In this document: positions 33 through 28,378 of the stretch, one piece after another
Layout: the number at the start of each line of letters is the position of its first letter
Position numbering within the stretch: position 1 is the first letter of the stretch
DNA from: Actinomycetota bacterium
Lineage (GTDB): Bacteria > Actinomycetota > Acidimicrobiia > Acidimicrobiales > Ilumatobacteraceae
NCBI GenBank assembly: GCA_015767405.1
Contig: JADWMG010000004.1
Span: forward strand, 1 to 33,264
DNA: 33,264 nucleotides
Direction: 5' to 3'
Notes under the pieces: generated by a model
Told to the model about the DNA's origin: nothing
The model's input: only the letters and a program-made list of their open reading frames with translations
The model's database searches: none
Made by a program: the position numbers and the translations under genes

Positions 33-665
33 TCAACGGGGTCTGTTGACGCTGACGAAGTCGTCGAGAATGCGGCCCGCTGTTGCCGCATCGAATTCTT
101 GTGGCGACATGAAGCGAATGAAAAGGAAGCTGCCGATGATCGAGGCCACTGCGAGGTCGAGGTCGATGTCGTGACGGATGTCTCCGGTCTCGATCGCCGA
201 TCTGATGATGGTTTGAAAGATTGGCTCGAATTCAGAGATGAGCTCATCGCGGACGGCCGTGACGGTGGGGTCGTGGAGCGCCCTTTCCATCATGATCGCC
301 ATCAGTGGTGCTCGCTGATCGTCTGCCAAGTCGTCGATGGCATGCTGGAAGAGAATCCCGAGGTCGGCTCTGACCTCTCCCGTGAGGGACGTGACCAGGG
401 GAGCGGTCTTCCCGAGTGCTTCGATTGTCGAGCGCAGCAGGTCGGCTCGGGTCGGCCAGTGTTTGTAGACCGTGGTGCGGCTGACGTTGGCAGAGCTGGC
501 GACGTTCGCGTGTGTGACGGCACTCGGGCCGTCAACCATCAGCAGTTCGACGGCAGCCTCGATAACGGCGGCGCGAGTCCTCTCGACTCGAGGGTCGTCT
601 GGGCGCGCGCCGGTACACGAGGCAGTCGCGTCGGTGGACGTCGTGGCTGGTGATGTCGGGGTCAT
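33..665 (-). CDS. TetR/AcrR-family transcriptional regulator
   Basis: A 210-residue DNA-binding repressor of the TetR type. The helix-turn-helix lies at about residues 47-66 (VTHANVASSANVSRTTVYKH), followed by the usual WPTRADLL helix; the rest is an all-helical ligand domain. It is divergent from an MMPL exporter gene, the classic arrangement in which the regulator controls both itself and the pump. The frame stays open to an ATG at 761, but I chose the ATG at 665. The longer starts would lie inside or upstream of the predicted promoter (-10 TAGAAT at 739-744), and residues added there show no TetR-like sequence. No strong Shine-Dalgarno is seen for either start. A short palindrome (28-40, CCCGTT-C-AACGGG) spans the stop codon. 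The inducer cannot be read from the sequence. The family call is firm and the target is inferred from position. Confidence 0.9.
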   Translation of the reverse strand: MTPTSPATTSTDATASCTGARPDDPRVERTRAAVIEAAVELLMVDGPSAVTHANVASSANVSRTTVYKHWPTRADLLRSTIEALGKTAPLVTSLTGEVRADLGILFQHAIDDLADDQRAPLMAIMMERALHDPTVTAVRDELISEFEPIFQTIIRSAIETGDIRHDIDLDLAVASIIGSFLFIRFMSPQEFDAATAGRILDDFVSVNRPR

Positions 666-738: not shown

Positions 739-768
739 ATTCTACTGGACACACTGTCCAATAATGAA
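739..768 (-). promoter_or_regulatory. tetR promoter with perfect 15-bp operator-like palindrome
   Basis: TGGACA-CAC-TGTCCA (746-760) is a perfect inverted repeat directly before the MMPL ATG at 764. On the minus strand it fills the spacer between TTCATT (763-768) and TAGAAT (739-744), an 18-bp spacing. A TetR dimer bound here would block its own promoter and also the start of the exporter transcript. This fits autoregulation in the family. The palindrome is seen; binding is inferred. Confidence 0.6.
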
Positions 769-3069
769 CACGACGTCCACTTCCCTCATTGATCCAGCTG
801 ACGAAGCGTCGTCCAGCACGCCCGACTCCCTGTCCGCTTGGGCTCGACTGGGACGTTTCGGATTTCGGAATCGTTGGCCGGTGCTCGGGGCCTGGATTGT
901 GGTTCTTGTCGCAGTATTCGCCATGGTCGGAACGGTCGGTACCTCGAGCGACAGTTCGTTCTCAATTCCCGACTCCGAGTCCAAGAACGGGTTCATCACA
1001 CTCGACGAGTACTTCGGCGGCGTTGGCAGCGGGCGCTCGGGATCGATTGTTTTCTATGCCGAACAGGGCGTCGACGAGCCCGATGTGCAAGCTGCAATGA
1101 CCGAGATGTTCGCGGCGGCCGATGACATCGAAGGTGTCATGCTGGTGAGCCCATATTCACCCGAAGGCCAACAGCTCGGGCTCGTTGCGACCGAAGGTGA
1201 TCAGGCCGGCCTGATCGCGTATGCCCAGGTTGACCTCTCCGAAGACATTTCCGAGGGAAGATCAGCCGAGATCGGCACGGAAATCGCAGGCCTGGCACCT
1301 GTCGGTATCGATGGGCTTCAGGTCGAGATCGGAGGCCAAGCACTGGCTGGGTTCGAACCACCGCAGTCCGAGATGATCGGCCTGGCCTTTGCCATTGTCG
1401 TGTTGATCCTGGCGTTCGGCTCGGTACTCGCCATGGGGCTGCCCATCGGTGTTGCGTTGTTCGGGGTCAGTATCGGTGCCGGAATCACGCTGCTGCTCTC
1501 GAGTGTGTTGTCAGTTCCCGACTTTGCGCTCACGCTTGGAGCGATGATCGGCCTCGGTGTCGGCATCGACTACGCCCTCTTCATAGTCACTCGATACCGC
1601 GAAGGTCTGAAGGCCGGTCACTCTCCGGAAGATGCCACCGTCGCTGCAATCGATACAGCGGGCCGTGCCGTGGTGTTCGCCGGTTTCACTGTCGTGATCT
1701 CGCTCCTCGGCATGTTCATCATGGGTCTCCCTTTCATCAATGGTCTTGCCACCGGTGCCGCTGTCACCGTGCTGGTGACCATGGTTGCTTCGATCACGCT
1801 GCTTCCCGCCTTTCTGGGCTTTGCCGGGAGTCGAGTCGATGTCACGCGCCGTCGGGGTCTCATCGCCGCCGGACTCGTAGCCGTCGCCCTGCTCGGTCTC
1901 GGTCTCGGAATCCAGCCTCTGCTAATCGGCGCCCCGCTCGCGGTGGTCGTTCTGCTTGCGTCGCTTGCCTACGCTCCGCTGCGCAAGGAACTACCGCCGC
2001 GGAAAGAGAAGCCGCTTCGCCAAACGACCGCGTATCGGTGGAGTCGTTTTGTGCAGAAGAATCCGTGGAAGGTCGCGCTCAGCACGAGCATCTTTCTGCT
2101 TCTGCTCTCGATACCGGTGCTCAACATGCGATTGGGTTTCAGCGACGAGAGCAACAGCGCCGAGGGCACAACGACGCGCGAGGCCTACGAGCTGATCAGC
2201 GACGGTTTTGGTCCAGGGGCCAACGGTCCGTTGCTTCTCACCGCCGAGCTGACCGGCCCGCAGGACGCGCAGGTTCTCACGGGCCTTGTTGAAACGCTCG
2301 AGTCGACCGAGGGTGTCGCAGAGGCCAACGGTCCGATCCCGAACAGTTTCGATGCGCCGGAGGCGGTCATCATCCAGGTGATACCGACAACTGGTCCGCA
2401 AGACGAAGCCACAACTGACCTCGTCGGGACGCTTCGTGACGACGTCGTGCCGGAAGCCACGGCGGGCAGTGATCTCGTAGTCAACGTGACAGGTTCAGTG
2501 GCTGCCAACATAGATTTCAGTTCGTACCTCGCTGCTCGCCTCCCGATCTTCTTCGGGGCGGTTTTGACGCTCTCGTTCCTCCTACTGATGATGGTGTTCC
2601 GATCGTTGCTCGTGCCGCTCAAGGCCGTGATCATGAACATGTTGTCGATCGGCGCTTCCTGCTGTCGCGGGTCAAGGAGGAGTTCGATCGCACAGGCGAT
2701 CCGGTCGAGTCGGTTGCCGACGGGCTAGCCGCGTCAGCGCGGGTGATCACGGCGGCCGCGGCGATCATGATCGTCGTGTTCGGCAGCTTCGTGCTCGAAG
2801 AGGATCGGATCATCAAGATGTTCGGGCTCGGGCTCGCGACGGCGGTATTCCTCGATGCGACGCTTGTTCGAATGCTTCTTGTTCCCGCGACGATGGAGTT
2901 GCTGGGAGCGCGGAACTGGTGGCTACCAAAGTGGCTCGACCGGATATTGCCGACCCTCAACGTCGAGGGTGGGGTGCACTCCTCAGCAATTTCTCTGGCG
3001 CACGACGCCGAGCAACGTGACGCAGCCGGCGACGACGAACAGTCAGGCAAAGAACTAATCGATGCCTGA
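764..3069 (+). pseudogene. MMPL/RND-family transporter, disrupted by an internal deletion and frameshift
   Basis: This gene encoded an MMPL-type RND membrane exporter of lipids or hydrophobic compounds. The first frame runs from 764 to a stop at 2728. It holds TM1 (about residues 40-57), the first extracellular domain, a TM2-6 block with the conserved GIDYALF (D269-Y270, proton-relay position), and the second half up to MNMLSIGA (about residue 631). It then turns into 23 unrelated residues. The true C-terminus continues in another frame from about 2656 (FLLSRVKEEFDRTGDP...) to the stop at 3069. Intact relatives have roughly 50 residues between LSIGA and FLLSRV, including the TM10 GLSMDYE motif; these are missing here, so about 150 bp (not a multiple of three) has been lost around 2654-2660. 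The gene should not make a working pump. An assembly error is the main alternative. It is divergent from a TetR regulator. Confidence 0.85.
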
Positions 3070-3098: not shown

Positions 3099-3150
3099 AG
3101 ATTTGTGTCGGCACTTACGTCGACATCACAGGTTTTTGCTGACACAAACT
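3099..3150. repeat. 52-bp inverted-repeat element, copy 1
   Basis: The arms TTTGTGTCGGCA (3102-3113) and TGCTGACACAAA (3137-3148) are inverted repeats with one G:T-type mismatch around a 23-bp centre. It sits between the ends of two convergent genes, immediately followed by a second copy with a 61-bp period. A third copy lies 16 kb away. It may act as a two-way terminator or be a small mobile palindromic element (REP or MITE-like); no transposase is present in the window. Confidence 0.8.
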
Positions 3151-3159
3151 CCCGGGCTG

Positions 3160-3211
3160 AGATTTGTGTCGGCACTTACGGTGACGCCACGGGTTTCTGC
3201 TGACACAAACT
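3160..3211. repeat. 52-bp inverted-repeat element, copy 2
   Basis: This differs from copy 1 at six of 52 positions, all in the central part and loop-side edge, while the outer arms are identical. It is separated from copy 1 by nine bases. Conservation of the arms with drift in the centre suggests the ends are what is recognised or folded. The convergent gap 3070-3249 holds nothing else that I can identify. Confidence 0.8.
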
Positions 3212-27406: not shown

Positions 27407-28378
27407 TCAGGACCGTGTTGGGTCGTCTGGCGAACGCCCGACAACGCGCCCGTCGCGAAACACCGTCACGGGACCGCTCTCGCTGACTGCCACCACGATC
27501 GCCGAAGGGTCGTCGAAGCTGTACCGACGCGCCGATGTGTGACGGGTTCCGCCCATTGCTTCGATCGACTGCTCGGCCGCGACGCTCGGGATGAGCCGCA
27601 CGCCGAGCTGACGGAGCACGCCCTTGTTGTCGATGATCGTCGCTCCATCGACTTGGGTCAGTACGTGACGCAGCGGCCCAAGGTCAGTTGGGCGAGCGAG
27701 GCGTAACGGCGGGGGTGGGGCCATTCGCTGCTCGAACCTGCCGCCGTGGCTCCCACCGAGGATCATCAATGCACCAATGCCAGCGGCACCGAGATCGTGA
27801 ACGGCGAACCGCAGTACACGATCGAGGATGCTGCTATCGGTGTCGTCCAGGCCACAGCTGGCCTGTTCGAGCCATGATTCGAACGGTGGTTCGACGTGCC
27901 ATGTGGAACCGTCCCAACGGGCCACGCCGAACGAGCCGACAACGCGTACATCGCTGTCAGGGCGGCGTTGCACGATGATGGCCCCGGTTGCTTCGGCCAG
28001 CACCACAACGTCTCGTTCGGACCCCGCTGCCCGGTCGAACACTGCGAGCGCGGTGACGCCATCGGCCTCGCGGATTGTCCAGCTGACGAGGCCGTCGGCG
28101 TACCTTCGTGTGTCGTGGTCATCGCGCTCAGCCGTGCGGCTCAAGGTTGTCGTCAGCCCGGTGATCCGCGACCAGTCGTCGGGAGCATTGGACGGCAGCA
28201 CGATTGAGCCGTATGTGGGAAGCCGCCGTTCATGACGAGGCGGGCGAAGCGCGTAGTCGAGTTCGTCGACGAGAACGCTTGGCGCCGATGTCGCCTCGAT
28301 GATTCCCGTCCCCTCGTCGAGGAGTTCTTCCTCCAGTCGGCGTAGGCGGCCTGAAGCCATTCGGCGAGCGCTGTCCAC
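27407..28378 (-). CDS. Diadenylate-cyclase (DisA/DAC-domain) protein, atypical
   Basis: A 323-residue protein whose C-terminal third matches the DAC domain that makes c-di-AMP from two ATP. ALMILGGSHG (203-212), the DGA metal motif at 244-246 (QVDGATIIDNKG) and GTRHT at 277-281 are followed by AIVVAVSESGPVTVFRDG. Classical enzymes have GTRHR; here the last Arg is Thr281, so activity is uncertain. The N-terminal 190 residues are unlike DisA, and the DNA-binding helix-hairpin-helix end of DisA is missing. Starts at GTG 28378 or ATG 28360 are both possible, and neither has a good ribosome site. It follows an enoyl-CoA hydratase gene by 63 bp. Confidence 0.72.
   Translation of the reverse strand: MDSARRMASGRLRRLEEELLDEGTGIIEATSAPSVLVDELDYALRPPRHERRLPTYGSIVLPSNAPDDWSRITGLTTTLSRTAERDDHDTRRYADGLVSWTIREADGVTALAVFDRAAGSERDVVVLAEATGAIIVQRRPDSDVRVVGSFGVARWDGSTWHVEPPFESWLEQASCGLDDTDSSILDRVLRFAVHDLGAAGIGALMILGGSHGGRFEQRMAPPPPLRLARPTDLGPLRHVLTQVDGATIIDNKGVLRQLGVRLIPSVAAEQSIEAMGGTRHTSARRYSFDDPSAIVVAVSESGPVTVFRDGRVVGRSPDDPTRS

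Follow-up and report, generated by a model that had tools for sequence, protein, structure and literature searches.

Introduction

MMPL proteins are exporters of the RND superfamily, and the gene described here is an ordinary, broken member of this known family. Among solved structures, the best match of an intact orthologue from the same genus (G001) is MmpL3 chain 7nvh_A (E 1.2e-59), which we take to be the MmpL3 of M. tuberculosis. The intact orthologue and this mycobacterial protein share the second-half Asp-Tyr motif, since Asp674-Tyr675 of the former aligns to D640-Y641 of 7nvh_A, presumably the equivalent of D645-Y646 in M. smegmatis. Unlike MmpL3, the G001 orthologue scores 233 bits on the MmpL3 equivalog NCBIfam NF052608, against a cut-off of 1400, and is therefore not classed as MmpL3; the first part of the gene under study, at 98.8 bits, is likewise under this cut-off. 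Bacterial pseudogenes that arise by an internal, frame-shifting deletion are the other close parallel. They resemble the present locus in that one deletion lies between two otherwise intact flanks, whereas the present case is known from one draft assembly. Among the papers searched, none linked Ilumatobacter with MMPL.

The DNA analysed here (hereafter the window) is a stretch of 33,264 nucleotides, which makes up one entire contig (C18) of the draft genome of an environmental actinobacterium (3.35 Mb, 438 contigs, 89.5% complete) and contains no ambiguous bases (N). Its closest named relatives are Ilumatobacteraceae bins. Two genomes of the same genus, G001 and G002, served as the main orthologue references; the G002 contig matches JAHENF010000004.1 of Ilumatobacteraceae isolate Ww99. 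More broadly, 89 MMPL loci among the matches listed were compared, 9 from a genome search and 80 of at least 81 from a contig listing, with two loci counted twice (L004 = L013, L008 = L010). The spacer between the two gene parts was measured by anchoring the first and last parts separately on each relative. Nine of the 89 loci were left out of this measurement because one of the two anchors is missing, several of them stopping at a contig edge, and a strictly anchored subset comprises 74 of the listed matches, representing 72 distinct segments. MMPL relatives also occur in 205 plasmid records, every one of them below 60% identity. In this article, we argue that a TetR-controlled MMPL exporter gene has probably been inactivated by a single, recent deletion of 139 bp.

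The Interrupted MMPL Gene

The features of the locus are as follows.

33–665, minus strand: divergent TetR-family regulator (PF00440 and PF16859; aligned with the TetR genes of G001 and G002)
746–760, no strand: palindrome TGGACA-N3-TGTCCA adjoining the MMPL start (exact in G002, one arm mismatch in G001)
764–2654, plus strand: MMPL first part, in frame, from TM1 to the start of TM9 (PF03176, orthologue identity, motif)
2654–2655, plus strand: deletion junction, where 139 bp of the same-genus orthologues are absent (orthologue spacers)
2655–2728, plus strand: out-of-frame tail of 24 unrelated residues and a stop (open reading frame list, translation)
2655–3069, plus strand: MMPL last part, in another frame, running from the end of TM10 through the C-terminus as far as its stop (PF03176, orthologues)

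The first frame (764–2728) encodes 654 residues; family sequence takes up residues 1–630, and the final 24 are unrelated to it. Its first part belongs to the family by Pfam PF03176 (161.7 bits, curated cut-off 20.5), is about 73% identical to the same-genus orthologues and keeps the first-half Asp-Tyr motif of a working MMPL transporter (GIDY, residue 267). The family C-terminus picks up in another frame and runs to 3069; this last part covers positions 221–309 of the MMPL profile from 2656 onwards (50.8 bits, same cut-off) and is 81–84% identical to the orthologues. A preliminary description of the locus had placed the departure from the family after about 2654 and the return of the correct C-terminus at about 2656, and both positions are confirmed, the junction lying between 2654 and 2655. 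Working transporters are expected to have a single continuous frame to the C-terminus and a second-half Asp-Tyr motif; in the window the frame stops at 2728, and the second motif is absent, falling in the missing segment.

The orthologues in G001 and G002 resemble the window gene in having an adjoining TetR gene and the same ABC genes nearby; unlike it, they are single open frames of 814 and 819 aa with the stretch retained. Between the anchors lie 144 bases in both of these genomes, versus 5 in the window (2651–2655), so that 139 bp are missing and the frame shifts. The preliminary description was thus right about a frame-breaking internal deletion, and its estimate of about 150 bp is replaced by 139 bp measured against G001 and G002. 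Its suggested alignment to intact relatives gave a uniform picture: among the matches listed, the spacer was measurable in 80 of the 89 loci and all 80 retain the stretch, none having the short form. Spacer lengths in these 80 listed matches are 144 bases in 41, 147 in 37, 135 in one and 150 in one, every one divisible by three, and in all 74 strictly anchored loci among them the segment is stop-free with MDY kept.

In G001, the lost segment corresponds to residues 631–677 and overlaps two hydrophobic segments, 619–641 and 655–681, which we take to be TM9 and TM10 by known MmpL topology. Read from the sequence, the lost stretch comprises what is predicted to be the end of TM9, most of TM10 and the loop that joins them, and with these goes the proton path's second Asp-Tyr pair; this bears out the earlier proposal that a transmembrane stretch and the GLSMDYE motif had gone. 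A single 139-bp event would remove all of these elements and shift the frame at once. The remaining product would have at most 654 residues, the final 24 of them unrelated, would be devoid of TM10–12 and should no longer be able to drive export by proton flow, and we infer that it is inactive.

Age of the Loss

Substitution patterns were compared separately for the two gene parts. By the Nei-Gojobori method, dN/dS of the first part is 0.11 between the window and G001 and 0.18 between the window and G002, versus 0.16 between G001 and G002; the last part gives 0.10, 0.10 and 0.15, respectively. The ratio of changes at codon positions 1 and 2 to those at position 3 is lower in the window than in its sister in 7 of 8 comparisons, with small counts, and is higher in one (last part versus G001, outgroups L014 and L017). 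As dS to the genus is about 0.9–1.9, near saturation, the position-share and dN/dS tests are weak and argue only against long decay. Old decay of the gene was set aside on these patterns, which in both halves resemble those of intact genes, within the limits of a test near saturation.

Since both halves look like intact genes in this respect, the loss is either recent or not real. We infer that it is recent, as the preliminary description had suggested, and the finding of no long decay agrees with that suggestion; it discriminates poorly, however, because absence of decay is expected equally of a recent deletion and of a misassembly.

Deletion or Assembly Error

An assembly of 438 contigs cannot, by itself, prove a deletion in the DNA. 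The chief alternative, to which we assign a minor though appreciable probability, is that the gene is intact in the organism and 139 bases were dropped during contig building. The draft state of the genome, the intact form of all 80 measurable relatives among the matches listed and the finding of no further decay in either gene half are all in keeping with such an error, and one study (PMC11017572) attributes many seeming bacterial pseudogenes to assembly errors. Against it stand the properties of the junction and its surroundings. Judged on relatives, the breakpoints have no repeat long enough to collapse (at most 2 bases in register), and the window has no N. The segment has not been left on any other contig, its only match elsewhere in the assembly being a paralogue on contig C123 that is 50% identical. 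Furthermore, all 12 other window genes paired with G002 are unbroken, each aligning as one tblastn piece; they encode TetR, PhyH, two ABC ATPases, two putative ABC permeases, an FAD-dependent oxidoreductase and five proteins further to the right, and an M23-like gene was excluded from this count because it aligned over its C-terminal third only. Gene labels follow Pfam where scanned; the second permease, which has no Pfam hit, and the genes further right, except a P-type ATPase, were named by eye. Since the junction has no collapsible repeat, all 12 of the other paired genes are whole and the window is free of N, we favor a real deletion, which would then exist in the organism itself.

How such a deletion might have formed was examined at its breakpoints, with the relatives' sequences standing in for the lost bases of the window's species. 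The sequence CTTCCT, previously proposed to mark a microhomology deletion, is rejected as such: among the matches listed, it lies near the left breakpoint in only 2 of 74 relatives (L066 and L067, Streptomyces, 35% identity) and in neither of the two from the same genus. It spans the right boundary in 24 of the 74 listed relatives, as ordinary coding sequence. Compared in register, the two breakpoints have no base in common in 34 of these loci, one base in 31 and two in 9 (n = 74, among the matches listed). They likewise have none in common in G001 and G002, whose 6–7-base repeats near the breakpoints do not fall in the register that a loss of 139 bp would need.

It is very improbable that the two frames yield a shortened protein, or one in two pieces, whose role has changed: the conserved TetR regulator and palindrome, the finding of no decay signs and a 108-aa open reading frame that starts with GTG at 2743, 15 bases past the first stop (the longest with a start codon in the last part), would suit it, against which none of the 80 measurable relatives among the matches listed shares the short form and, with the Asp-Tyr pair and most of TM10 gone, even ribosomal frameshifting would yield no whole exporter. 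Still more speculative is a two-frame short form fixed in the species and expressed under TetR control as a truncated MMPL with a new role; if this were true, a non-transporting MMPL could serve, e.g., as a binding partner or sensor.

On the preferred reading, that of a real deletion, the locus would be another recent exporter loss with the regulator left in place. For annotation, the genome should not be credited with a working exporter at this locus until reads have either confirmed or rejected the deletion. A second MMPL gene is present on contig C123 (703-aa open frame, 30–32% identical over aligned pieces), and with this gene kept the loss need not be costly.

Regulator and Surrounding Sequences

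The repressor and promoter had been described as looking intact, and in comparison with G001 and G002 the TetR gene and the palindrome by the MMPL start codon are indeed conserved. The TetR protein aligns through its conserved part with the products of the TetR genes beside both orthologues, and the N-terminal ~50 residues differ; its start at 665 was picked by comparison with G002, the open frame extending to 761. From its sequence and position, the palindrome at 746–760 is likely an operator. A second inverted repeat, GTGTC-N4-GACAC, was seen by eye at 697–710, upstream of MMPL; its counterpart, also by eye, is a perfect repeat of 7 + 7 bases in G001 and an imperfect one in G002, and it may possibly be a second TetR operator. 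An Rfam scan of the window gave no family at gathering score.

The MMPL and PhyH genes converge, and two tandem palindromic repeats (3102–3148 and 3163–3209) lie in the gap that separates them; the arms, TTTGTGTCGGCA and TGCTGACACAAA, depart from a perfect palindrome at one base. Allowing at most one mismatch, the arm pattern has 128 matches in its own genome (60 forward, 68 reverse; 0 for a reversed-pattern control), 19 in G001 (control 1) and none in G002. In 58 further genomes of the family it never exceeds 3 matches per genome, a number that the control also reaches there. The repeat has the look of a REP family that has multiplied in its own genome. The same genome carries one Y1_Tnp gene (L119, C4:11990-12319; PF01797, 50.2 bits, 304-aa open frame), a candidate RAYT for the REP-like repeat; no repeat arm (at most 2 mismatches) was found in the 3330 bases examined around it. 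Elsewhere in the window, 27407–28378 on the minus strand encodes a diadenylate-cyclase-like protein with a DACNK sensor domain and a DisA-type DAC domain.
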